Shown here: piece after piece, positions 29,061-46,303 of the stretch
Numbering within the stretch: the stretch's first letter is position 1
Layout: the number at the start of each line of letters is the position of its first letter
From: Acidobacteriota bacterium
GTDB taxonomy: Bacteria > Acidobacteriota > Terriglobia > Acidiferrales > UBA7541
DNA length: 46,375 nt
Assembly: GCA_028877145.1 (NCBI GenBank)
Contig: JAGWOX010000002.1
Location: 1 to 46,375, forward strand
Direction: 5' to 3'
Made by a program: the position numbers and the translations under genes
The notes under the pieces: generated by a model
The model's input: the letters and a program-made list of their open reading frames with translations, nothing else
The model's database searches: none
Told to the model about the DNA's origin: nothing

Positions 29061-30572
29061 ATGCGGTGGTTTGCGGCCAAATGGATTCCAGCGGTGACGC
29101 TGGCGGTCGTAATCGGTGCGGCGGCCTTTGCCTGGGGAGCCCGGCGTGCGCCGATCCGGGCAACGAGCATTCCGGCAGTGACGAATAGCAGCCACGGCCG
29201 TCTATCGCCGGATAAGGACCCTCGATTGAAGGGGGCCTATCGCTTCACGGAAAATGGCTGGATCTACGTTCATCTGCAGGGCACGCCGGAAGAGATCGGT
29301 TTCCAGCATGGCTATCTGCTGGCGTCGGAGATCGAGGACGCGTTCAAGGCCGTGCGTCTTGAGGACGTCCATAACACCCGTCACGACTGGGCGTTCTTTC
29401 GTGAGGCGGCGCACAACATGCTCTGGCCCAAGATTTATCCCGAATATCAAGCCGAGTTGCAGGGAATTGTCGAAGGCCTCCACGCGCGCGGCGTCAAGAT
29501 GGATCTGGACGATATCGTCGCGCTGAATGCGTTCGAGGAATTGCCGGGCTATTACGTTCCCTGGTACGACGCCCAGCACAAACAGCAGGAGGCCGCAGCT
29601 GGATTCAAGCCCGCCTCGCCCGACCCCATCAGTCTCGAACACTGCAGCGCCTTCGTCGCCACCGGCAGCTATACGAAAAAGCACGACATCGTCATGGCGC
29701 ACAACAACTGGACCACGTACGTTGACGGAGAGCGCTGGCGCATCATGTTCGATATCGTGCCCGAGCACGGCTTTCGCATGCTGATGGACGGTTTCCCGGG
29801 CGTGATCACGAGCGACGATGATTTTGTGATCAATTACGACGGGATCATGGCCACCGAAACCACGATCTCCGATTTCCATGGTTGGGACCCCAACGGAATT
29901 CCCGAGTTCGCCCGGTCACGAGAGGCCATCCAATACGCGACGTCGATCCCCGACTACGTGAAACTGATCAACAAGGGCAATAACGGAGGCTACGCGAACG
30001 ACTGGCTGTTGGGCGACCGGAAGACGGGCGAAATCGCGCGCTTCGAGCAGGGACTGAAGCACACGCGACTCTGGACGACCAAGGACGGCTATTTCGTCGG
30101 CTCGAATTTCCCAAGCGATCCCGAAGTAACCAAGGACGAAACGACGTTCAACGTCGACGACATGTCGAACTCGGCAAACGCTCGCCACGTCCGCTGGGAC
30201 GAGTTGATGAAGCAGTACAAGGGAAAGATCGACACGAAGCTCGCCGAGAAATTCGAAGGCGATCACTACGACAGCTATGAGAAGAAGATCGATCCGGACG
30301 AGCGCACCCTCTGCGGCCACATCGACAACTCGCCTCGCGGAACTCACCCGTACGAGCCCTTCGGCGCGGTGCAGAGCAAGGTCACCGATAGCGAGATGGT
30401 GGCGCACATGACCCTGATCGCGCACCTGGGTCATCCCGGCGGCGAGAGCTTCTACGTGAAGCCGTTCCTGAAGGCGCACCCCGAGTACGACTGGGAAAAA
30501 TCCATCCTGCGGGACATGCCGGCCTACCCCTGGACGACATTCCTCGCGGGCGAACAAGGGGGGGCGAAGTAA
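29061..30572 (+). CDS. Secreted C45/phospholipase B-like Ntn-hydrolase (copy 1)
   Basis: Signal anchor MRWFAAKWIPAVTLAVVIGAAAFAWG; EEIGFQHGYLLASEIEDA; candidate nucleophile Cys in EHCSAFVATGSYTKKHDIVMAHNNW; GGYANDWLLGDRKTGEIARFEQG. RBS CGAGGAGG upstream. Confidence 0.78.
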   Translation: MRWFAAKWIPAVTLAVVIGAAAFAWGARRAPIRATSIPAVTNSSHGRLSPDKDPRLKGAYRFTENGWIYVHLQGTPEEIGFQHGYLLASEIEDAFKAVRLEDVHNTRHDWAFFREAAHNMLWPKIYPEYQAELQGIVEGLHARGVKMDLDDIVALNAFEELPGYYVPWYDAQHKQQEAAAGFKPASPDPISLEHCSAFVATGSYTKKHDIVMAHNNWTTYVDGERWRIMFDIVPEHGFRMLMDGFPGVITSDDDFVINYDGIMATETTISDFHGWDPNGIPEFARSREAIQYATSIPDYVKLINKGNNGGYANDWLLGDRKTGEIARFEQGLKHTRLWTTKDGYFVGSNFPSDPEVTKDETTFNVDDMSNSANARHVRWDELMKQYKGKIDTKLAEKFEGDHYDSYEKKIDPDERTLCGHIDNSPRGTHPYEPFGAVQSKVTDSEMVAHMTLIAHLGHPGGESFYVKPFLKAHPEYDWEKSILRDMPAYPWTTFLAGEQGGAK

Positions 30573-30730
30573 GGCCCTCTGTGAGCGTGCCGCCCCCGTC
30601 GGTCGCCACAAGGGGCGAGACATCGGCGAATACGACCACGCGACGGCGCCTCCGGCGCAACACGCTCGGAACTCGGGGTGTTCTTCGCAGGTCCTTTGCT
30701 AACGATGTCAATTCGATGCGCCCGGTTCGG

Positions 30731-30760
30731 TTGACACCGCCCGACGCCGCTGCCTAAGAT
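30731..30760 (+). promoter_or_regulatory. Sigma70-like promoter TTGACA-N18-TAAGAT upstream of second C45-like hydrolase
   Basis: TTGACACCGCCCGACGCCGCTGCCTAAGATGGC; same architecture and flanks as 28990-29019. Confidence 0.6.
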
Positions 30761-30790
30761 GGCGCCGCCGAACCGATCGGGAGGTGGCGC

Positions 30791-32287
30791 ATGCGTTTGA
30801 CGACGAAGCTGATTCCGGGAGCCCTGTTCCCTGTGATTGTGGCCTTGGGAGCATTTGCCTGGGGTGTGCACCGGGGACCGATGCCTGCGATGTCGCTGAC
30901 CGTCACCGCGACTCCTCCCGCCGCAGCCCAGAAGACTCGACTGGAGGCCCGACTCAAGAGTTCCTACCGCTTCGACGAAAATGGCTGGATCTTCGTGCAT
31001 CTCGAGGGTACGCCGGAAGAGATCGGCTTCCAGCACGGTTACCTCCTGGCGGCTGAGATCGAAGACGCATTCAAGGCCGTTCAGCTCGAGGATGTGCACG
31101 ATACGCATCATCCCTGGTCGTTTTTCCGCACGGCGGCCCACGACATGTTGTGGCCGAAAATCGATCCCGAATATCAGGCCGAATTGAAGGGCATCGTCGC
31201 GGGACTGCAGGCCAAAGGCGCGAAACTCGATCTCGACGACGTCGTGGCGCTGAACGCGTTCGAGGAATTGCCCGATTACTACGTGCCCTGGTACGACGCT
31301 CGCCACAAGACGGCCGGTGCGCCTCACCTCACGAGCCCCGGCAACTGCAGCGCCTTCGTCGCCACCGGCAGCTACACGAAAAACCACGACATCGTGATCG
31401 CCCACAACAACTGGACCAACTACGCCAACGGCGAGCGCTGGCGCATCATGTTCGATATCGTGCCCCAGCATGGTTTCCGCATCCTGATGGATGGTTTCCC
31501 CGGCGTTATCACGAGCGACGACGATTTCGGCGAGAATGCCTACGGCATCATGGTCACCGAAACCACCATCTCACAGTTTAACGGCTGGAATCCCGATGGT
31601 GTCCCGGAATTTGAGCGCTCGCGCAAGGCGCTCCAATACGCCACTTCCATCACGGACTACGTGAAGATCATGAACGAAGGCAACAACGGCGGCTACGCCA
31701 ACGACTGGCTGCTCGGCGACCGAAGGACCGGGGAGATCGCCCGCTTCGAGCAGGGGCTGAAACACACCCGACTGTGGACCACCAAGGACGGCTACTTCGT
31801 CGGCTCGAACTTCCCGAGCGACTCAGAAGTGACGAAGGACGAAACAACATTCAACGTTCACGACATGGCAAATTCCGCGAATGCTCGTCATACGCGTTGG
31901 GACGAGCTGATGAAGCAGTACAAAGGCAAGATCGATATCCAGCTCGCGGAACAGTTCGAGGCGGATCACTTTGACGCGTACGCGAAAAAAGAAGGCGCTG
32001 ACCAGCGCACGCTCTGTGGCCACGTGGATACTTCGAGGCACGGCGTGCCCATCTGGGATTGGGGACCGTATTACCCGGGCGGAGCGGTGCAGGGCAAAGT
32101 GACCGACAGCGAAATGGCCGCCCGCATGAGCCTCATCGCGCGTCTTGGTCATCCGTGCGGGGAAAGCTTCTACGCGAAGCCGTTCCTCGCCGCTCATCCC
32201 GAGTACGACTGGCAGAAATCGATTTTGCGCGACATGCCCGGCCATCCCTGGACCACGTTCACGGCTGGAGAAACGCGGAAACAATAA
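30791..32287 (+). CDS. Secreted C45/phospholipase B-like Ntn-hydrolase (copy 2, tandem paralog)
   Basis: Collinear and highly similar over its full length to 29061-30572; GNCSAFVATGSYTKNHDIVIAHNNW. Confidence 0.78.
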   Translation: MRLTTKLIPGALFPVIVALGAFAWGVHRGPMPAMSLTVTATPPAAAQKTRLEARLKSSYRFDENGWIFVHLEGTPEEIGFQHGYLLAAEIEDAFKAVQLEDVHDTHHPWSFFRTAAHDMLWPKIDPEYQAELKGIVAGLQAKGAKLDLDDVVALNAFEELPDYYVPWYDARHKTAGAPHLTSPGNCSAFVATGSYTKNHDIVIAHNNWTNYANGERWRIMFDIVPQHGFRILMDGFPGVITSDDDFGENAYGIMVTETTISQFNGWNPDGVPEFERSRKALQYATSITDYVKIMNEGNNGGYANDWLLGDRRTGEIARFEQGLKHTRLWTTKDGYFVGSNFPSDSEVTKDETTFNVHDMANSANARHTRWDELMKQYKGKIDIQLAEQFEADHFDAYAKKEGADQRTLCGHVDTSRHGVPIWDWGPYYPGGAVQGKVTDSEMAARMSLIARLGHPCGESFYAKPFLAAHPEYDWQKSILRDMPGHPWTTFTAGETRKQ

Positions 32288-32341
32288 TCCCGGTTTCCGC
32301 GTCTCATCGAGTGGGGCAGCTCGGCCGCCCTCGGTGAACCC

Positions 32342-34150
32342 TTGGCTGTCCAATCGCACGAATCGGCCTCGTCAGACCCGGCTCGCCATCCGGCTCTTCC
32401 CCTCACAACGGCGCGAGCGATTGCGTTCACGCTAGCGATCGTCTATCCAGCCTTCTGGCTCGCCCAATTCACGATCGACTCGCTTCCGGGACTAGTGCGA
32501 ATAGTGTTTGCCGGGAACGAACTGAAATGGGTGAGGATCTCAGTGCTGGGATCGTATGTGGCAAGCGCCGCGTCAAACGATCCGCCGGGTGGCCCATCGT
32601 TTGGGATGAGGGGGCTCGGCGGGGAAACGTTGTTAGGCATTGTTGTGGTGGTTGCCCTGGGCGCGCTGGTGCTGTACCTGTCGCGGAGACGCGGCATGAT
32701 GGCATGCGGTCTATTCGCTGCTCTCCTCGGGTATGGCGGGTTCGAGCAATTGCTGCGGCGCCTCTGGGTCGCGTCTCCCGACGCGGGCTGGATCGCAAGT
32801 GGATTGCTGCTCGGGGCACTGTGGACGATGGGGCTGCGCCGGCTGGTGACAGCGACTGCGCCGCTCCCGTCCCGCTACGGATGGCGCTTTACCTCTGCCG
32901 TTCTCTTCTTCACTCTGCCGCTGGCCGCACTCCTGCTGGTCTTCCACTGGGCGGTGGGCATGCCTCTGCTCACGCGATTCGTTTGGGTTTTCATTCCCGG
33001 CCTCGTGCCTGGGGCGCTGGCGGGTATAAAACCGGTTTCGCCTGGAACCGGGAACACCGAGGAGATTTCGTGGAAAGCAATTGCCGTCGGCGGGTTGGTG
33101 ACGGCCGTGCTCGCGGCCGCGGTCGCGTTCGCCGGCCGCCCGATCGAAACCTCCTTCGTCCATGAACGCGCGGCACGGGCGCGCGCGATGGTCTCCTCGC
33201 TTCCGTTGGTCCCCGTCGATGACCCGTACCCAAGGCAATTCTTTCAAAAGGGCGTCAATTTCACCGCGGAATTCGGCGCCCCGTACGCTTCAACCGACGC
33301 ACTCGAAGCGCTCAAGCGTCTCGTGCCGTACGGAGTGAATGCGGTCGCGCTCGTGCCCTATGGCTGGATGCAGGAGGGCCAGCCCGTGGTCCGTGTGAAC
33401 CGCGGCCTCAACGTGTGGGAGAGCGACGAAGGCCTCGAGGATGTCGCGCGAATGGCGCATTCGCTCGGCATGAAAGTCTTCCTCAAACCTCAACTATGGG
33501 CGCGCGGAGGCTCGACCACTGATCTAGATTTCCGCGATCCGGCCGAGCGCGAGCAATGGTTCCAGCAGTACGGCCGTTTCATCGACCACTACGCACGCCT
33601 CGCCACGCGTATTCACGCCGATCTGTTCGCGGTAGGCGTCGAGCTTGGCATGATGTCACGCTACGACGCAGAATGGCGGGGAATCATCGCCGGTGTGCGC
33701 TCACTCTATCCCGGGCCGCTGGTCTATGCGGCGAATTTTGGGCCGGATTTTCAGGACGTCACCTTCTGGGACGCGCTCGACTACATCGGACTCGACGAAT
33801 ACTATCCGCTGCCCGAAAACCTCTCGACGGTGGAACTCGTCCGCAGGATTGAGCGCGTGGCCATCAATTACCACCGCCCGGTCCTCTTTACCGAAGTGGG
33901 ATTTCCGAGCCTGGTCGACCCTCAGCGCCGTCCCTGGGATCAATCCCCGCGCCCGATTTCGCTCGAGGCCCAGGCCCGCTGCTATCAGGCAATTTTCCGC
34001 GCGTTTTACGGAAAGCCCTGGTTCGCAGGCATGTACTGGTGGAAGGTGGGCACGAATGGCGAAGGCGGCCCGGACAACGGTTCCTTAACCCCATGGGGCA
34101 AGCCCGCGATGGGAGTGGTACGCGGGTGGTATACGCAGGGTGGCCGCTGA
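32342..34150 (+). CDS. Multi-TM membrane protein fused to a GH113-like TIM-barrel glycosidase domain
   Basis: N-terminal hydrophobic segments (AFTLAIVYPAFWLAQFTI, LLGIVVVVALGALVLYL, SAVLFFTLPLAALLLVFHWAV, AVGGLVTAVLAAAVAFAG), then FFQKGVNFTAEFGAPYAS...VELGMM...YIGLDEYYPLPE...FTEVGFPSLVDPQ...MYWWKVGT. The start codon is uncertain (TTG at 32342). Confidence 0.7.
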   Translation: MAVQSHESASSDPARHPALPLTTARAIAFTLAIVYPAFWLAQFTIDSLPGLVRIVFAGNELKWVRISVLGSYVASAASNDPPGGPSFGMRGLGGETLLGIVVVVALGALVLYLSRRRGMMACGLFAALLGYGGFEQLLRRLWVASPDAGWIASGLLLGALWTMGLRRLVTATAPLPSRYGWRFTSAVLFFTLPLAALLLVFHWAVGMPLLTRFVWVFIPGLVPGALAGIKPVSPGTGNTEEISWKAIAVGGLVTAVLAAAVAFAGRPIETSFVHERAARARAMVSSLPLVPVDDPYPRQFFQKGVNFTAEFGAPYASTDALEALKRLVPYGVNAVALVPYGWMQEGQPVVRVNRGLNVWESDEGLEDVARMAHSLGMKVFLKPQLWARGGSTTDLDFRDPAEREQWFQQYGRFIDHYARLATRIHADLFAVGVELGMMSRYDAEWRGIIAGVRSLYPGPLVYAANFGPDFQDVTFWDALDYIGLDEYYPLPENLSTVELVRRIERVAINYHRPVLFTEVGFPSLVDPQRRPWDQSPRPISLEAQARCYQAIFRAFYGKPWFAGMYWWKVGTNGEGGPDNGSLTPWGKPAMGVVRGWYTQGGR

Positions 34151-37307: not shown

Positions 37308-38078
37308 TCAGTGATTTTCGAAAGTGAAGTCGGCCGTGGTAGCCTCCCCGGCGCGCACCACCAGGTTGCGTTCCTGCGCGCCGAAGGTCGCGGTCCAGAC
37401 TTCGATGGTGTAGTTGCCGGGAGGAAGGCCCTTCAAGGCGAAGCTGCCATCCTTGCCGGTGACGGCGTAGAACGGATTGTCGACCACGCCGATATAGGCC
37501 TTCATCCACGGATGCACGTTACAGCGAACCGGAATCATCGTCTCGGTATGCTGCAACCTGCGCACTACCGAGGGCGATCCGGGCTGCTGCGAGACGTTCC
37601 ATTCCCGATTGGATTTCGGGATCACGTGAACGTTGTGGGTGGTCGGATCGAGATTGATCACCTCAAACGGCTGCCCCACCATCACGCCCACCACGTGCGG
37701 ATCGTACTGGCAGCCTCTCTGGGTGAGAGTGACAGGATTCCGCGGCGCCGTGGAAGGAAGTGTCGCCGAGCTGTGCTTGATGTAGATGAACGCGTTCGGC
37801 AGTGTGCCGTCCGCGTTCACTTCGCCGTCTTGCGCGTACACCGGTCCTGTGTGCAAGGAGGCGCAGACCGAGTCCTTTCCCATGTCGATCGGATGGGGCT
37901 GCGGTTTCGGTCCCTGGAAATGGATCTTCCCGGTGATCTCGCCGCGATTGCTGCTCTGCGGCCTTTTCGCGCCTGTGGCGGCTCCGGCTGTCACACTTCC
38001 AGCCAGAAACGCGCCGCAACCGACGAAAAGCGCCAGCGCCATCAACTGCGTTCTTGGAAAACTGCTGCACTTCGCCAT
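37308..38078 (-). CDS. Secreted amicyanin-like cupredoxin with C-terminal carboxypeptidase-regulatory-like domain
   Basis: Signal peptide; DPTTHNVHVIP and VRCNVHPWMKAYIGVV (His...Cys-x2-His-x2-Met type-1 Cu ligand set as in amicyanin CTPHPFM), then GKDGSFALKGLPPGNYTIEVW. Confidence 0.75.
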   Translation of the reverse strand: MAKCSSFPRTQLMALALFVGCGAFLAGSVTAGAATGAKRPQSSNRGEITGKIHFQGPKPQPHPIDMGKDSVCASLHTGPVYAQDGEVNADGTLPNAFIYIKHSSATLPSTAPRNPVTLTQRGCQYDPHVVGVMVGQPFEVINLDPTTHNVHVIPKSNREWNVSQQPGSPSVVRRLQHTETMIPVRCNVHPWMKAYIGVVDNPFYAVTGKDGSFALKGLPPGNYTIEVWTATFGAQERNLVVRAGEATTADFTFENH

Positions 38079-38186
38079 TTCTCTGGAAACCTGCCTTTCT
38101 CTGTCACCGCTTCGCGGGCTCCCTAGAGGAGCCCCGGCGGCGGCGAGGAATATGTTTTTCCACTCCGGCTGTTTGCGGCCGGAGGT

Positions 38187-39590
38187 TTAAAAGATCAGGC
38201 CGAGGTACAGGTACATCGCGTTGTTGTCGCTGGCATTGCGGCCGGAGCCATCGTAGTTGGTTGAAGCGCCATTGAAGGACGTATAGGCCGTGTACTGGGC
38301 GGCAAGGCGGACGTTTTGCACCGGCCAGTAGGTGAAATTGAGGTTGAATCCTGCACCCAGGGGATTGCCATTATTGCTGCCGTCCACCGGATCGGGCGGG
38401 TAGAGCAGCGGATCGGCCGTGCCCGTGGTTCTGAAGTACTGAATGGAGGGGATGTAGCGGTAGCCGAAATGGTAGATGCCATCCACTCGGACCGTGTTCA
38501 GGTGATGCGGCACAAGGCTGGCCGCGCCAGCGCCGAAGAAGGCGTTCAGGTCGGAATTCTCGCGGATGTACGTTACGTGAAGTGTGAGGATGTCGTTCGC
38601 CAGTTTGGGCAACACCTGCTCGTATTGGGAATCGACAGCCACGTCGGTGTACGTATTGGTCGGCCCAGTCACCGTTTGCGGCGTGCTGGCCACGTGCATC
38701 CCGTAGGTGCCGAACTCGAGGTAGGAATTGCCCATGCTTTGTTGCCACGCGACTCGCCAGTAGGGCGCGGCTCCCTGGATGTTGAAGTCGAAGCCTTCAC
38801 CGGTATTCGGAAGCGGCTGGCCGAGATGCGCCGAGCGGTAGATCTCGAAGTCGCCGTATAAGTGGTCGTTCCACATCGCGTATCCGCCGATTCCGGCGGC
38901 ATCCTGGGCAAGCGTTCCATCCACCACCGTGGCAGCGGCAGGTGTCGGCGCCGATGCGGACGCGATGAAAGGGAAGCCCCAGGCCGGCGTGTCGTTCCAC
39001 AGGTCCTCGACCGTGGGATTGTTGTTCAGGTCGATGCCGTAGACGAACGTCTTATTGCCGAGCAGCGTGTTGCGCGCGTAGCGGATGTCCGTATTGTCCC
39101 AGCTGAAGTGGTCGGCCTGAACGTCGTAGGTGGCCTGAATGAACCCTCCAGCGTGGGTTGAGAACGCTCCGGCCAGGAACAGGGACACGTCTTGTGGAAG
39201 CGAATAGTCCCAGTTGGACTTGCCGGGCTGGGGCTTGTTCAACCCGGTGGTCGAGGCTTCCAGCCAGGCGGCCAGAGGCAGATAGGAGAGCAACTGCAGT
39301 CCCGGTGTGCCCTTTGCCGGTGGAGCGCTGATCACCTTGATCCCGGTCATCGTGTAACCGTTCAGCTTGAAACGCCGTCCGAGCGGAGTTAGCTCGGGCG
39401 GATTGATATGACACGAACTGCACGCCAGACCCGTCTGCCGCGCGAAACTCGGCACGGCCTCGGCCCGGCGCGGCAGCCCGACGAGCAGCAACAACACCGC
39501 CGCTGCCTGCAACAGGAATAATGCGCCGGAACCGCATCCCGGCCATCTTGCACACCTCTTGTAATCGATTCTTTGAGCGGTCATCTTCAT
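38187..39590 (-). CDS. Cyc2-like fused monoheme cytochrome c/outer-membrane porin
   Basis: ATG at 39590 with GGGGGAG RBS; N-terminal VPSFARQTGLACSSCHINPPELTPLGRRFKLNGYTMTGIKV (CxxCH heme motif with FARQTG...LxPxGRxFKLxGY context of Cyc2), then beta-barrel-like alternating aromatic strands, ending AMYLYLGLIF with terminal Phe. Confidence 0.72.
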   Translation of the reverse strand: MKMTAQRIDYKRCARWPGCGSGALFLLQAAAVLLLLVGLPRRAEAVPSFARQTGLACSSCHINPPELTPLGRRFKLNGYTMTGIKVISAPPAKGTPGLQLLSYLPLAAWLEASTTGLNKPQPGKSNWDYSLPQDVSLFLAGAFSTHAGGFIQATYDVQADHFSWDNTDIRYARNTLLGNKTFVYGIDLNNNPTVEDLWNDTPAWGFPFIASASAPTPAAATVVDGTLAQDAAGIGGYAMWNDHLYGDFEIYRSAHLGQPLPNTGEGFDFNIQGAAPYWRVAWQQSMGNSYLEFGTYGMHVASTPQTVTGPTNTYTDVAVDSQYEQVLPKLANDILTLHVTYIRENSDLNAFFGAGAASLVPHHLNTVRVDGIYHFGYRYIPSIQYFRTTGTADPLLYPPDPVDGSNNGNPLGAGFNLNFTYWPVQNVRLAAQYTAYTSFNGASTNYDGSGRNASDNNAMYLYLGLIF

Positions 39591-39619
39591 CTCCCCCTTT
39601 CGTTTTCCCGCTGCCGAAT

Positions 39620-40378
39620 CTAGGATCCGAGTTTGAAGGTGACCGTAGTTGTTTTGCCAGCCTGTACGACGACTTGCTGCTCCTTGGTCCCCAGCTTCTC
39701 CTGCCAGATTTTCAAGTGATACGTGCCGGCCGGGACGTCGGTCAGTGTGAACGCGCCACCGGACTTGCTCATCGTGTAGTAGGGGTTCTTGGCGACGACG
39801 ACATAGCCCTGCATCCAGGGGTGAATGTCGCAGCGTACCATCACCGTCTCCGGCCGCATCAGCGTCAGTTCCACCGGGCTGCTGCTGGGCGCCATCATGT
39901 GGTTCGAGGTGCGATTGAAGTGGGCATATACGTGAATGTTGTGCGTCACGGGATCGCTGTTCAGAATTTCGACCTGTCCTGGTTGCATCAAGACAACGTC
40001 GGGGGAGAACATGCACTTCTTCTGGTCGAGAACCGGCTTCGGAAAGGAGAACGCCTTCCCATGCGTAATGTCATCGAGCCAGACCACCGCGCCGGCCACT
40101 CCTCCCTGCTCCACCTGGATCGGGTACATCTCCTTCATGCTGCCGCACGCTGACTGGTCCGTAGTCACGGCGAGCTTTTGCGGTCGCACCGGCTTGCCGG
40201 CCCAGAGAAGCTTCCCTTCGATCGTGCCTCCGGGCGCCGATTGCACCGTGTAACCCTCTTGCGGCGGAACGGCTGCTCTGCCCGGCTTTCCATAAATGGC
40301 GAGCCCGCCGACAAGGGCCAGCACTGCTGCCACAGTCACGCAGAACGTACGTCTACTCATCCCTGTTGATTTGTCCAT
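39620..40378 (-). CDS. Secreted amicyanin-like cupredoxin with C-terminal carboxypeptidase-regulatory-like domain (paralog of 37308-38078)
   Basis: MDKSTGMSRRTFCVTVAAVLALVGGLAIYG signal; DPVTHNIHVYAHFN, VRCDIHPWMQGYVVVAKNPY, SGGAFTLTDVPAGTYHLKIWQ. Confidence 0.75.
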   Translation of the reverse strand: MDKSTGMSRRTFCVTVAAVLALVGGLAIYGKPGRAAVPPQEGYTVQSAPGGTIEGKLLWAGKPVRPQKLAVTTDQSACGSMKEMYPIQVEQGGVAGAVVWLDDITHGKAFSFPKPVLDQKKCMFSPDVVLMQPGQVEILNSDPVTHNIHVYAHFNRTSNHMMAPSSSPVELTLMRPETVMVRCDIHPWMQGYVVVAKNPYYTMSKSGGAFTLTDVPAGTYHLKIWQEKLGTKEQQVVVQAGKTTTVTFKLGS

Positions 40379-40739: not shown

Positions 40740-41171
40740 ATGCGTGAATTCATTCCAGGATTTCTCAGGAACCGGCGGTCAGATCGTCCGCGCTTAGGAG
40801 TGCTGTTGATTTTCGGATTAGCCGTATTGTCCTTGGCTGCGGGCCAACTCTACGCGCAAGGAAAGCCGAAAATTCCGACCGTCGACGCCGGCGTTGGCTC
40901 GTGTTCGGCCGATTTTGTCGTACGGGATGGAAACAACAAACCGCTCTACAACGCCAGCATCGATCTCACGTTCCGTTATGGCCTTTTCAACCTCCACAAA
41001 GTCTCGCTCGAGGCCTTCACCGATTCAAACGGCCGCGCACACTTCAAAGGTTTGCCGGACGCACCGAAAAATCCGCTCGCCTTCGACGTTCGCTACGGTG
41101 ACCGCCAGAAGACGCAGACCGATAACCCGCTCTATACCTGCAAGGCCAGCTACGATGTCGTCCTTCCGTAA
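40740..41171 (+). CDS. Small secreted beta-sandwich-like hypothetical protein
   Basis: Signal MREFIPGFLRNRRSDRPRLGVLLIFGLAVLSLAAGQLYAQG; two Cys in the mature region; VRDGNNKPLYNASIDLTFRYG...EAFTDSNGRAHFKGLPD resembles a transthyretin/CarboxypepD_reg-type fold. Confidence 0.6.
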   Translation: MREFIPGFLRNRRSDRPRLGVLLIFGLAVLSLAAGQLYAQGKPKIPTVDAGVGSCSADFVVRDGNNKPLYNASIDLTFRYGLFNLHKVSLEAFTDSNGRAHFKGLPDAPKNPLAFDVRYGDRQKTQTDNPLYTCKASYDVVLP

Positions 41172-41308: not shown

Positions 41309-42103
41309 TTATTCCGGCAATCGGCGGCGCAGCGTTAATCCGAGCAGCAAGAGCCCCGTGCCTACCAAGGCGAGCGTTCCGGGTTCCGGAGCAACTCCAA
41401 CGGTCACGGCTTCGCTCAATGGGGTCGTGTCGGTCATCACGCACGGGCCCGTTGAGCAGGATTGGTTCGTCAGAAATCCCCAGAAAATCGTGCCCTGGGG
41501 AAAGGAGGCGATGTTGTTGAATGTGATCGTGAGCGGAGTGCCGGTGAATGCGCCGAGATCGTACACCGAGACCGCAAAAGCGCTCGTGGAAACGCCGACC
41601 TGCGCGGCGGCCGTGGCGAAGGCGCTGAAATCCTCGTTTCCGCCGGCGCCCGAGGCCAGGCTCAGGTTGCCGACGTTCGCGGCGAGAAAGTCGGTGAAGG
41701 CCCCCGATGTGAAGCTCGAACTCGCCGTACCCACCGCGCCGTTTCCGTTCACGGTGAATGCCGGCAGCGAGCCCCCCGCCGGGACGAGAATCGCCAGGTA
41801 GGCTTCGCCGGTGTCCGTGCCGCCGCTCGTGAGCTGGAAACTGAGCGTGGGCAGCATGTCACTCGTGATGATGGTCGTCGTTCCCGAAATGCCGTTGCAG
41901 CCGCTGCCGCACAGCCGCACGTCGGCCGGATCCACGAGTGTCGTGCTCGTGCCGCTGTCTAAGTTTGTCGTCAAAGGCGGTGTTGCGTACCCATTCGTCG
42001 TCGCGGTCTGAGTCGCCGCGGCTTTCGCCGAGGTCCCGCCGAATAGCAGCAGGCAACAGCCCAATCCAATCCCCAGCCATCTCCTCGCTCTAGCGTGCTT
42101 CAT
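41309..42103 (-). CDS. PEP-CTERM sorting domain-containing secreted protein
   Basis: Signal peptide plus C-terminal APEPGTLALVGTGLLLLGLTLRRRLPE (PEP motif, TM, basic tail). Confidence 0.92.
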   Translation of the reverse strand: MKHARARRWLGIGLGCCLLLFGGTSAKAAATQTATTNGYATPPLTTNLDSGTSTTLVDPADVRLCGSGCNGISGTTTIITSDMLPTLSFQLTSGGTDTGEAYLAILVPAGGSLPAFTVNGNGAVGTASSSFTSGAFTDFLAANVGNLSLASGAGGNEDFSAFATAAAQVGVSTSAFAVSVYDLGAFTGTPLTITFNNIASFPQGTIFWGFLTNQSCSTGPCVMTDTTPLSEAVTVGVAPEPGTLALVGTGLLLLGLTLRRRLPE

Positions 42104-42246
42104 CGTTTTTGCTCTCCTCAAGAGTGTCGTTTGCCCGACTCAAACGGCGCGGGCCTGGCTGCCGTTCCTCCTTGCAGGCAAGTAACCAATGACGGTCCGT
42201 TTTGACGGTCGCGCATCCGCCTCAAAATCAATCTGTTGCACGACAG

Positions 42247-42260
42247 GCGCACGACATGCC
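42247..42260 (-). promoter_or_regulatory. Possible sigma54-type -24/-12 element (GG-N10-GC) upstream of the PEP-CTERM gene
   Basis: Minus strand AGGCATGTCGTGCGCC: GGCA.G...GC spacing matches GG-N10-GC. Confidence 0.2.
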
Positions 42261-42329
42261 TGATGGCTTGGCGCGGATATATAAAATCTTGTCCATACAG
42301 TCTCTAATCGGTTGTCTATAGCCTCGCCG

Positions 42330-44666
42330 TCAGTGATTCTGTGCGTCTTCCATCGACGGGAGCGCCTTCAACGCGGCCGCCTTTTCACTCGCAGTCAGAC
42401 CCAGGTTGAGTGCCAGCGCGAGTCTCTCCCGCGCCGTCCGTTTCCGCCCCGTGGCCAGCAGTTCCATCCCCAGGTGGTATTCGACGAGTCCGTCCCGCGG
42501 CAGTGCGTGCGCGGCTGATTCCAGTTGCTCGACGGCCAGCGGATGGATGCCTTTCTCGTGGTAGATCCACCCGAGCGTATCGGCGACCTGCGGGTTCTCT
42601 GGGAAGCGCGACTTCAGCGCTTGCGCGAGAGCGAGCGCCTGATCGAGGTTCGCGCCGCGTTCGGCCCAGCAACGTGCCAGCGCCAGTTTGATGGCGTCGG
42701 AGTTCGGCGAGGCAAGCCGGCCCGAATCGAAATACGATTCAGCCTGCTCGTAGCGTCCTTCGCGCATAGCCATGTTTCCGGCGAGCAAGTACCCGGCGAC
42801 GCTCGCCGGGTCGTTCTGGATTGCCGCGGCGTATTCGGATGCTGCCCGGTCGTTTTCTCCCCGTCGCTCGAGGATTTCGCCCAAGAGTTCGTGCGCGGTC
42901 GAGCGGATCGGGCTTTCGGCAAGCGACTGGCGCACCGATGCCTCCGCCTTGGCATACTGGCCGGTGTTGAAATACAGCCGGGCCAGCAATTCGAGAAGCG
43001 CGGGATTCGTCGGCGAGGACGCGAGGGATTCCTGCACGCTGGCGATGGCGCGCGGCACTTGGCCAGCCGATGCCAGAGCCGAAGCGTACCATTCGACGAG
43101 CGGCGCGGGATCCGGCGCGCCGTCCATCACCTGGGAGAATTCGCGGTCGGCTGCCGGAAAATTCTTGCGCGCGATGTCGTAGCGCACGGCAACCTCGCGA
43201 AATGCTCGCGGCTCGTTCTCTATCTTCTCGCCCACGTCGATGATCTGCCCGGCCCCGTTCAGGTCGCCGTGCATCACGTCGGCTTGCGCGAGCAGCAAGT
43301 AGCCATCCACCGCTCCGGGATTGATTGCTAGAACCTTCCGCGCGTATTCGGCTCCGAGCCTCCAGTCGCCCGAATCGAGCGCGATTTGCCCGAGGCGGAC
43401 GTACGCTCCGAGAAACTTGCCATTGGCCTCCACGCATTCGCCGAATGCTCCCTTGGCGCGGTCGGTCTGCCCCGTCGCGAGCCACGTCAGTCCCAGGTAA
43501 AAATTGGCCAGAATGGAGCCCGGATTCTCCTTGAGTGCCGCCTCGAGCGTCGCGCCCGCTTGCGAATAGTCTCCCTGCAAGTATTCGAGCGCCCCGAGCA
43601 AGGCGCGAGCGTCCGGGTCGCTGGGATCGCGCAGCAGGACAGCGTGCGTGTATCGCGAGGCGCGGGGAACGTCCCGCATCGTCAAGTACGCGCTTGCCAG
43701 GTTCTTTTCCACCAACTCGCTCGGCGCGGCGGCTTCGGCGGCGCGGAATTCGGCCACGGCGCGCGGCAGCTCGTTTCGCCACAACCAGAAATTGCCCAGC
43801 GCCACCGGCAGATTAGGAAATGTTTTCGGCGCACGCACGAGCGAGGCGAAGAGTCTGTCGGCCTCGGCCAGCCGGCCGTGCCGCACATAGAGGTCTGCCA
43901 GACACAGATTCAGATCGAGGGAGTCGGGGTGGCTTTTGACACCGCCCGACACGAGCGCCTCGGCCTCGTCAGTTTTTCCCTCGAGATCGAGCAGGTTCGC
44001 CAGGTTCCGGTAGTTCTCGGCGGAACCGGGCTCGATGCGCAGCGCCTCGCGAAAATCCTGCTCCGCCGCCGGGTACTGCTTCTGGCCGGTCTCCGCGAGG
44101 CCGCAGAGCGCGTACACCTCATCGTCGGCCGGCGCGAGTTGCTTCAGCACGGCGCATTGTTTCGTGGCTCGGTCGAGCTCGGAAGTTCCGAGATCGAGTT
44201 TCATCTCGACAATCTCCATGCGAACGCTCTTGGGGTCGAGCCGCCGCGCCTGCTCGAGCTGCTCCTGCGCGAGGCGGGATTGGCCGGCGGCGACATATAA
44301 CTCGGCCAAGTCGAGTCTCGCGGGCGCGAAGGAAGGCTGCGCCGTGACAACCGATTTCAGGTCGTTATACGACGAGCGCCATTCGCCGAGCCGGTTCTCG
44401 ACTTGCGCGAGCTGGTAGCGTGCCTTCCAGTCGCTCGGGTCCTTTTGCAAAGCGTTGTGAAACTGGATCGCCGCTTCCCGGTATTTCCTGTGCGCCAGAT
44501 AGCGGGCGCCACTCGCGAGGTAGGCGCGAGCCGCGGCCTTGGGATCGGTCTTGCAACCCGCACCGGCCAGCGCGAAAAGGGCCAGCAGCAGCGTCGCCGC
44601 CCAGGCTCGGCGCCATGCCGCGCGATGCATGGCCCCGATTCCAATGCCAACTTGTCTGATCTCCAT
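42330..44666 (-). CDS. TPR-repeat lipoprotein of the exosortase/PEP-CTERM system (PrsT-like)
   Basis: Lipobox LAGAGC; many TPR units across about 780 aa; adjacent to epsI/exosortase. ATG at 44666 within ORF 42330-44684. Confidence 0.82.
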   Translation of the reverse strand: MEIRQVGIGIGAMHRAAWRRAWAATLLLALFALAGAGCKTDPKAAARAYLASGARYLAHRKYREAAIQFHNALQKDPSDWKARYQLAQVENRLGEWRSSYNDLKSVVTAQPSFAPARLDLAELYVAAGQSRLAQEQLEQARRLDPKSVRMEIVEMKLDLGTSELDRATKQCAVLKQLAPADDEVYALCGLAETGQKQYPAAEQDFREALRIEPGSAENYRNLANLLDLEGKTDEAEALVSGGVKSHPDSLDLNLCLADLYVRHGRLAEADRLFASLVRAPKTFPNLPVALGNFWLWRNELPRAVAEFRAAEAAAPSELVEKNLASAYLTMRDVPRASRYTHAVLLRDPSDPDARALLGALEYLQGDYSQAGATLEAALKENPGSILANFYLGLTWLATGQTDRAKGAFGECVEANGKFLGAYVRLGQIALDSGDWRLGAEYARKVLAINPGAVDGYLLLAQADVMHGDLNGAGQIIDVGEKIENEPRAFREVAVRYDIARKNFPAADREFSQVMDGAPDPAPLVEWYASALASAGQVPRAIASVQESLASSPTNPALLELLARLYFNTGQYAKAEASVRQSLAESPIRSTAHELLGEILERRGENDRAASEYAAAIQNDPASVAGYLLAGNMAMREGRYEQAESYFDSGRLASPNSDAIKLALARCWAERGANLDQALALAQALKSRFPENPQVADTLGWIYHEKGIHPLAVEQLESAAHALPRDGLVEYHLGMELLATGRKRTARERLALALNLGLTASEKAAALKALPSMEDAQNH

Positions 44667-44712
44667 GTCTCTCCTCCCGTCCAATACGCTCCGCCTGTTC
44701 GGCGGATTCGCT

Positions 44713-45408
44713 TCAATTCGGAATGAATTTCACGAGATGCGGAAAAACAATCCGCAGAAACTCCGTTGTGCGGCGCTCGGCCGGGCCGATTTCACGGCCG
44801 GAGTTGGCGATCGGCGTGGTCACGCGTACGAGCGCGCCATCGGTCCGGTCCCGTGTCAGGGCATCGGCCGTGAGCCAGAATTTCGCCGCGTATTCGCTGG
44901 TGACGTCACGCCCGCGCTCCTGGTACCAGTAAAGGACGAGGACATGCGCCGTGTCGCGCGCCACGTCGTATTCGTTCACGAGGAGCGGGGCCGTGCCGGC
45001 CATCGGGATCGCCAGGCGGCGCGATTCCACGGGCTGCCAGCCCGTTCCCGGCAGGCAGTTCTTCGGCGAATGAATCGTGTGCCCCGTGCGCTGGCCGCCG
45101 TAGTAGCTGATGTAAAGCGTCACCGGAGCTTCCGAGCCGTCGGAATAGATTCGGTTCAGATAATCGTCAAGTCCCACCGCGCGCACGATTCGCTCCGGCA
45201 ACGGAACGTTCTCGCCCGACCAGCGGCCAAGGACTATCGGAAATTCGGCCAGCGGCGCGTGCGCGGGTACTTTTTCGCCATGGTTCAGCCGCCCCATCGA
45301 CAAGATGCCGCACCCCAGCACCGCGGCGGCGAGCCACAGGCGTCCTGCGGATCCCACCCTACCCACGAAGCGCCTCGATTCGGCCCGAGAGCCATTTGAG
45401 GAGTACAT
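44713..45408 (-). CDS. EpsI-family protein (exosortase-associated C-terminal domain, DUF3485-like)
   Basis: FPIVLGRWSGENVPLPERIVRAVGLDDYLNRIYSDG..APVTLYISYYGGQRTGHTIHSPKNCLPGTGWQPV is typical of EpsI. Confidence 0.92.
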   Translation of the reverse strand: MYSSNGSRAESRRFVGRVGSAGRLWLAAAVLGCGILSMGRLNHGEKVPAHAPLAEFPIVLGRWSGENVPLPERIVRAVGLDDYLNRIYSDGSEAPVTLYISYYGGQRTGHTIHSPKNCLPGTGWQPVESRRLAIPMAGTAPLLVNEYDVARDTAHVLVLYWYQERGRDVTSEYAAKFWLTADALTRDRTDGALVRVTTPIANSGREIGPAERRTTEFLRIVFPHLVKFIPN

Positions 45409-46303
45409 GCGCCCCGAGCATCAGCACCGCCGCCGTAAGGAAAATCAACCAGCCGGAGAACTCGTGAAAGAAACCTTGGGCCAGCCGTGGCGAGATTTCC
45501 GCGGTCAGCGCGCCCGTGCCGAAAATCCGAAACGCATTGCTCGCCACCGCAATCGGCACCATCAGCGCCACCAGCATCGCTCGCATCCGCATTTGTTTCT
45601 CCGCCAGATAGGCGTAAGCCACCGCGACCGTCACCAGCGAAACGAGCGAGCGAATGCCGCTGCACGCCTGCGCCACCTCGAGCGTGTAATTCGCGAGGAT
45701 CAGCAAATTGCCTTCGCGCAGCACCGGAATGTGCACGGCGGCAAGCGCCGCTGCCGCCCAACGCGACGCGAGGATTTGCAGCGGCAGCGTTACCTCGGCA
45801 TACAGGACGCCGGGCCAGGGAATCATGAATACGAGGTACCCCAGAGGAAAAGCGACCGCGCCGAGCCTGCGCCAGCCTGCGAGGTACAAGACGAGCGAGG
45901 CGAGCAGGACGACGAACGAAAACCGCGTCGTGAAAAGCTCCGCCGCCAGCGTCCCGACAACCAGCAGCACGACCGCCCACGCAATTCCCACCAGCCCCAG
46001 CCAACTGCCGCCATTTCCCGTTCCCAACCACCGCCGCCGCTCGCGCCAGAGCACGAATCCCGAAAACGCCGGAACCAGAAATCCGTGACTCCAGTTCGGA
46101 TCCTCCCACCACTGCCTCGCCATCAGCCCAAACACCGGCGCATATAGCAGGACGATCAAGACAATCAGTGTCCCGGCGGCGAGCATGACTTGATCGCCCC
46201 AGACCAAGTTCAGTGTCCAGCTTTGGCCTCGCGCCTCAGGGGCTCCATCACAATCGACTCGCAAACGTACTCCTTCACCAAAGTTTCGCCTCCCCCATTG
46301 CAA
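45359..46303 (-). CDS. Exosortase (transmembrane transpeptidase)
   Basis: Multi-TM with AQACSGIRSLVSL (catalytic Cys), SNAFRIFGTG (Arg) and FFHEFSGWLIF (His). Overlaps epsI by about 50 nt. Confidence 0.94.
   Translation of the reverse strand: MQWGRRNFGEGVRLRVDCDGAPEARGQSWTLNLVWGDQVMLAAGTLIVLIVLLYAPVFGLMARQWWEDPNWSHGFLVPAFSGFVLWRERRRWLGTGNGGSWLGLVGIAWAVVLLVVGTLAAELFTTRFSFVVLLASLVLYLAGWRRLGAVAFPLGYLVFMIPWPGVLYAEVTLPLQILASRWAAAALAAVHIPVLREGNLLILANYTLEVAQACSGIRSLVSLVTVAVAYAYLAEKQMRMRAMLVALMVPIAVASNAFRIFGTGALTAEISPRLAQGFFHEFSGWLIFLTAAVLMLGAHVLLKWLSGRIEALRG

Follow-up and report, generated by a model that had tools for sequence, protein, structure and literature searches.

A Cyc2-like cytochrome-porin gene between two cupredoxin genes: a candidate electron-uptake module of Acidobacteriota

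Results

Three neighbouring genes of a soil-type Acidobacteriota genome are predicted to encode a fused monoheme cytochrome-porin of the Cyc2 kind and, on either side of it, a copper protein of the cupredoxin type. We consider it probable (roughly 0.6) that they form an outer-membrane electron-uptake module with the copper proteins as periplasmic acceptors, Fe(II) being the least certain element of this reading. The middle protein has the anatomy and the signature of Cyc2, the copper sites of both neighbours are intact, the pairing is conserved, and relatives carry these genes in a respiratory neighbourhood.

The cupA-cyc2-cupB locus

The window, i.e., the whole stretch of DNA that was analysed (46,375 nucleotides), comprises positions 1-46,375 of the forward strand of contig JAGWOX010000002.1, assembly GCA_028877145.1 (Acidobacteriota; Terriglobia; Acidiferrales; UBA7541). 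The host assembly has a size of 3.88 Mb in 349 contigs and is 91% complete. Genes around the locus were called with a codon-usage script. On the minus strand the order is CupA, Cyc2-like monoheme cytochrome-porin, CupB, with gaps of 29 bp (CupA/Cyc2) and 108 bp (Cyc2/CupB). A first-pass annotation of this DNA had named three same-strand genes for a cupredoxin, a cytochrome-porin and a second cupredoxin, and all three were recovered at the same positions:

39620..40378, minus strand: CupA, 252 aa, probably exported cupredoxin with an amicyanin-type copper domain (residues 98-196, approximately) and a C-terminal CarboxypepD_reg domain (profiles, AlphaFold, Foldseek)
39812..39943, minus strand: type-1 copper ligands of CupA, H146, C183, H186 and M189 (conserved throughout the alignment of 40 family members)
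38187..39590, minus strand: Cyc2-like fused monoheme cytochrome-porin, 467 aa, C-terminal Phe (motif, 16 modelled strands, matches to 16-stranded porins)
39432..39458, minus strand: Cyc2 signature AVPSFARQT, a strict match by direct reading to the consensus AXPXFAR[QK][TY] (PMC8406198)
39408..39422, minus strand: CSSCH at residues 57-61, the attachment motif for heme c, with P-E-L after it (motif, invariant columns in 17 divergent homologues)
37308..38078, minus strand: CupB, 256 aa, probably exported cupredoxin with a CarboxypepD_reg tail (Pfam; 34% identical to CupA; separate clade)
37503..37637, minus strand: type-1 copper ligands of CupB, THN...C-NV-H-PW-M (direct reading, invariant alignment columns)

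The operon is followed by genes for a PadR regulator and a large membrane protein. The window locus consists of just cupA-cyc2-cupB, with neither cyc1 nor cox genes, and no oxidase or bc complex adjoins the operon in the host genome.

A small secreted-looking orphan (40740-41171, 143 aa, without Pfam match) is divergent from cupA and has a homologue at the same position in the related genomes L044, L045 and L049. Beside the operon lies an exosortase cluster (41309-46303) with EpsH (PF09721), an EpsI-like DUF3485 protein, a large TPR protein and a likely PEP-CTERM-type protein. The stretch 29061-34150 encodes two tandem Phospholipase B-like proteins (PF04916) and a GH113 domain protein; it is likewise found next to the Cyc2 operon of L045 and of L046, and in L044 next to a Cyc2 that lacks cupredoxins.

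The middle protein carries the Cyc2 signature

According to the published test, a Cyc2 protein is no shorter than 365 residues, comprises a 16-stranded porin, and has the motif AXPXFAR[QK][TY], which is said to be unique to Cyc2, before CXXCH and a PXL motif after it (PMC8406198). The resemblance to Cyc2 that had been seen in the N-terminal context holds to the letter: the protein reads AVPSFARQT-GLA-CSSCH-INP-PEL, an exact fit to this signature. An N-terminal hydrophobic export-like segment is soon followed by CSSCH, the only CXXCH of the 467 residues, with the PXL motif (PEL) shortly downstream. The C-terminus is YLYLGLIF, so that the single heme motif and the terminal Phe noted earlier are both present. 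When 17 highly divergent homologues, 14-70% identical to the window protein, were aligned, the invariant columns proved to be mostly signature residues, among them C57, C60, H61, P65 and L67. The known members of the family (Mariprofundus PV-1 Cyc2, Acidithiobacillus Cyc2 and Leptospirillum Cyt572) share with the window protein the AXPXFAR[QK][TY] motif, one CXXCH with PXL after it, a length of more than 365 aa, a predicted 16-stranded barrel and the C-terminal Phe; the window protein differs from them in its Acidobacteriota host and its gene neighbourhood.

Pfam and NCBIfam searches gave no family match for the Cyc2-like protein, which is unsurprising because the barrel of Cyc2 proteins is poorly conserved (PMC8406198), and a search of PDB sequences with a Cyc2 profile also gave no match. 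An AlphaFold2 model built from 12 sequences shows 16 long strands at modest confidence (mean pLDDT 52, pTM 0.58). In Foldseek it matched the porins Vibrio OmpT, OmpF and PorB with TM-scores of about 0.4-0.6. Of the barrel with an N-terminal heme plug for which a structure prediction had been advised, the model reproduces a 16-strand barrel following the heme motif, while the heme domain itself is poorly modelled (residues 35-108 below pLDDT 50). Sequence and model together support the view that the middle gene product is a fused cytochrome-porin of the Cyc2 kind with a predicted 16-stranded barrel.

CupA and CupB have amicyanin-type copper sites

CupA and CupB share 34% identity. That both neighbours are cupredoxin-like, as had been annotated, is borne out by their type-1 copper ligands in the order H...C-x2-H-x2-M, which the 40 aligned family members share without exception. 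The ligand loop of rusticyanin is C-x4-H-x4-M, and the shorter C-x2-H-x2-M is that of amicyanin. A rusticyanin identity of CupA and CupB was rejected on the basis of this loop, which suggests that a rusticyanin-like role would be filled here by a different type of cupredoxin. No rusticyanin was among the listed profile and fold matches of the cupredoxins.

The earlier description of the two proteins as amicyanin-like stands for the loop spacing, for a profile from six family members, which matches PDB amicyanins at 1e-7 over the central domain, and for the fold of CupA (AlphaFold model, pLDDT 76; Foldseek matches to amicyanin and plastocyanin). It does not extend to the equivalog level: TIGR02657 (amicyanin) hit CupA weakly, with 17.7 bits versus a cut-off of 110.2, and gave no match to CupB. 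Both proteins carry, above cut-off, a C-terminal CarboxypepD_reg domain (PF13620) that had been missed. Thus CupA and CupB resemble amicyanin and plastocyanin in ligand spacing, profile match and central-domain fold, but are about 250 aa long, with an N-terminal extension and the C-terminal CarboxypepD_reg; unlike for amicyanin, no methylamine dehydrogenase context was seen. We regard both as predicted type-1 copper cupredoxins with an amicyanin-type site, the CupA model lending support for the fold. The signal of CupA contains SRRTFC; Tat export is not claimed, because CupA of L045 has no double arginine.

The pairing of Cyc2 with cupredoxins is conserved

Homologues were searched in 101 related genomes and in GTDB contigs. 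The search for the Cyc2-like protein gave close homologues at 50-81% identity and many distant ones that aligned at the signature only; the named close matches are Acidobacteria/Terriglobia metagenome-assembled genomes. Cyc2-like genes were present in 88 of 297 sampled Acidobacteriota genomes. For the pairing count, 59 Acidobacteriota Cyc2-like genes were fetched with their flanks and without regard to cupredoxins, and a gene was scored as paired if a cupredoxin family member was located immediately upstream or at most two genes downstream on the same strand. Such a neighbour adjoins 34 of the 59 genes (full sandwich in 9), and the conservation beside homologues on which the first-pass annotation had made its reading depend is thereby confirmed. 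The cupredoxin family has about 1-8 members per genome. Three full-length members are encoded in the host genome, two of which flank its only Cyc2. At a generous 1% per gene the pairing would arise by chance with a probability of about 1e-52, a value that treats related genomes as independent, which they are not. Chance pairing is excluded because intact homologues of other species (70-80% identity) keep both gene order and paralogue identity.

The cupredoxin tree separates the two types into clades that each keep to one position: the seven sequences of the CupA type all come from genes upstream of Cyc2 (support 98), and the CupB clade, with nine rows, contains downstream genes throughout (support 98). 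A second, distant set (L068, L070, L073) shows a cup-Cyc2-cup sandwich built from other cupredoxin subfamilies; judged from these sequences, the layout probably arose more than once. The pairing is also found in distantly related Cyc2 clades. It is not obligatory, since some close relatives (L034, L044, L055) have no cupredoxin neighbours beside Cyc2.

The distant set represents a second, distinct type of Cyc2 cluster. Here (L068 3176-8836, L070 and L073) cup-Cyc2-cup is followed by two COX2-like proteins, a rubrerythrin-family protein and a polyferredoxin-like membrane protein, and a sigma-54-type regulator and a hybrid kinase are encoded upstream.

Plasmid-borne homologues have other neighbours

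Full-length homologues with 31-39% identity are located on plasmids of Caballeronia, Paraburkholderia, Ideonella, Polymorphobacter, Methylocystis, Acidiphilium and one Acidithiobacillus ferrooxidans strain. In most cases they adjoin small c-type cytochromes, and the Caballeronia homologue has a HiPIP gene upstream; no cupredoxin is annotated beside those inspected. The Cyc2 tree shows at least five changes between a cupredoxin and a cytochrome c partner, a number that is only indicative because the neighbour labels were assigned by hand and this quick tree has several long branches. The proteobacterial c-type cytochrome partners and the tree suggest that the periplasmic acceptor may be exchangeable between cupredoxin and c-type cytochrome.

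On an A. ferrooxidans plasmid (L084, 7926-9293) the Cyc2-like gene belongs to the window group, has the variant signature FAAQTG instead of FARQTG, and lies near a c-type cytochrome gene and a transposase gene.

Respiratory genes adjoin Cyc2 in relatives

Representatives of the respiratory neighbour genes of relatives were checked with Pfam. In one group (L072, L076, L078, L080-L082, L108, L109) the order is Cyc2, cupredoxin, pyridine-nucleotide/4Fe-4S oxidoreductase, Rieske protein, cytochrome b and multiheme protein. A second group (L069, L077, L104-L106) encodes Cyc2, a diheme cytochrome c, a cupredoxin and a haem-copper oxidase (COX2-COX1-COX3). L033 shows the order COX2-COX1-Cyc2-cupredoxin, and in L037, L040, L050 and L064 Cyc2 adjoins Rieske/cytochrome b genes. 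The third cupredoxin of the host genome is encoded between split cytochrome b/8-heme genes and ctaA with a ctaB-like gene. By their position and by these neighbours of relatives, the placement of amicyanin-like proteins in the role of rusticyanin, as first suggested, appears reasonable.

Some further observations were made in these regions. L039 (11940-14972) and L040 (7004-9946) encode, beside Cyc2, a cytochrome b (980-1010 aa) whose long fused tail contains five CXXCH motifs, an unusual bc-type complex. One genome (G074) has two window-group Cyc2-like genes (L058 and L064), each by a Rieske/cytochrome b cluster. In the host genome, inspection by eye revealed a carbon-monoxide-dehydrogenase-like (CooS) protein near an aa3-type oxidase (L101, 11612-13555) and NarG/NarH-like nitrate reductase subunits (L102, 1-4240).

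Discussion

Our data support the earlier reading of the locus as a candidate outer-membrane electron-transfer module, for which we infer an inward direction of electrons and Fe(II) as donor. In this module a donor that is small and soluble would enter through the 16-stranded porin and be oxidised at the single heme c, which would plug the pore at its periplasmic end. From the heme the electrons may pass directly to CupA, CupB or both, and these would carry them over the periplasm to the respiratory chain, i.e., to a bc-type complex and/or a haem-copper oxidase. Dissolved Fe(II) would be the likeliest natural donor, yet it is the least certain part of the module reading; it is favoured because the functionally characterised members of the Cyc2 family oxidise Fe(II) (PMC8406198).

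This last point also weighs against the alternative that survives best, though we consider it unlikely: the same conduit, with cupredoxins carrying electrons inward, may serve a small reductant other than Fe(II), such as Mn(II), an organic or humic compound in reduced form, or a shuttle. For Ca. Manganitrophus, a role of Cyc2 in the oxidation of Mn(II) was proposed as well (PMC9040806), and the function of Cyc2 Cluster 3 was called most uncertain (PMC8406198). The host has two clear COX1 genes and encodes aerobic haem-copper oxidases, its assembly (91% complete) contains no match to RuBisCO (PF00016), and the lineage looks heterotrophic, all of which would suit another donor; the neighbourhood, however, points to no other substrate. 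Calvin-cycle autotrophy was rejected for the host assembly for lack of the PF00016 match, and because no RuBisCO is detectable, any oxidation would more likely supplement heterotrophy than drive autotrophy of this kind.

The same parts could in principle work in both directions, and amicyanin-type sites are usually lower in potential than rusticyanin, which would fit an outward conduit in which the cupredoxins feed respiratory electrons to the heme-porin for reduction of extracellular Fe(III) or a shuttle. We regard this as improbable, since the potentials of type-1 copper sites are usually too high for the reduction of Fe(III) minerals at neutral pH, and since the links of relatives to terminal oxidases, to bc-type complexes and to a pyridine-nucleotide oxidoreductase are the pattern expected for uptake. 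The links to respiratory genes also argue against a function in copper handling, in which copper would be oxidised or reduced by the heme-porin at the surface, and the cupredoxin-like proteins would serve as copper stores or chaperones. An outer-membrane pore flanked by two copper proteins may bring such a function to mind, and simple electron carriers do not usually have an additional CarboxypepD_reg domain, but no gene for a copper ATPase, efflux or chaperone was recognised adjoining the window operon, and it is complete type-1 sites, not copper-storage motifs, that are conserved; we give this explanation slightly less weight still. The least credible view is that of an ordinary porin whose heme is structural or a relic, with cupredoxins adjacent by inheritance and without dedicated electron transfer: the relatives lacking cupredoxin neighbours and the barrel-heme geometry, left open by the low model confidence, would allow it, but the heme motif with its surrounding signature is the most conserved part across deep homologues, and the pairing recurs in distant Cyc2 clades.

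The electron-uptake module that we favour is partly familiar. Cyc2 together with rusticyanin is well known, the order in the Acidithiobacillus rus operon being cyc2-cyc1-cup-coxBACD-rus (PMC10654088). As in that operon, Cyc2 is encoded at our locus with predicted periplasmic type-1 copper proteins, and oxidase genes are adjacent in some relatives; unlike it, the window locus has no cyc1 and cox genes, two cupredoxins bracket Cyc2, and these have the amicyanin-type C-x2-H-x2-M loop and a CarboxypepD_reg tail. Cyc2 homologues in Acidobacteriota metagenome-assembled genomes were already reported (PMC9671151, PMC10367259, PMC9769843), and the matches in PMC9671151 were placed in Cluster 3; in the parts of these three papers that we consulted, the Cyc2 gene only is listed and a pairing with cupredoxins is not described. 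Leptospirillum Cyc572 groups with homologues from Acidobacteria (PMC10654088). Many Cyc2 homologues, including those of Acidobacteriota, are from organisms not known to oxidise iron (PMC7029218, PMC9769843). The first-pass annotation knew of no operon with this exact layout, and a full-text search, which covers the literature outside subscription-only papers, likewise found no description of cupA-cyc2-cupB; in the single paper of these texts in which Acidobacteriota, cyc2 and cupredoxin occur together, the cupredoxins are multicopper oxidase domains. Within the searchable literature, the two-cupredoxin layout around Cyc2 is therefore what is new.

Cyc2 serves as a marker for iron oxidation, and the redox partners of many homologues are largely undefined. 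Here genetics indicates likely partners, namely two dedicated copper proteins and, in relatives, a connection onward to bc-type complexes and oxidases, so that a role of Cyc2 outside the classic iron oxidisers becomes testable with three small genes. More tentatively, and at somewhat less than even odds, copper-based electron uptake by Cyc2 may be widespread in Acidobacteriota, with amicyanin-like, CarboxypepD_reg-tailed cupredoxins having joined Cyc2 more than once and swapping with c-type cytochromes as periplasmic acceptor. Acidobacteriota are a dominant soil phylum, and the finding of the Cyc2-cupredoxin pairing in many relatives suggests that common soil members can draw electrons from outside the cell. 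If copper-based uptake is indeed widespread in the phylum, ordinary soil Acidobacteriota without RuBisCO would gain supplementary energy by oxidising Fe(II) or a different soluble donor.
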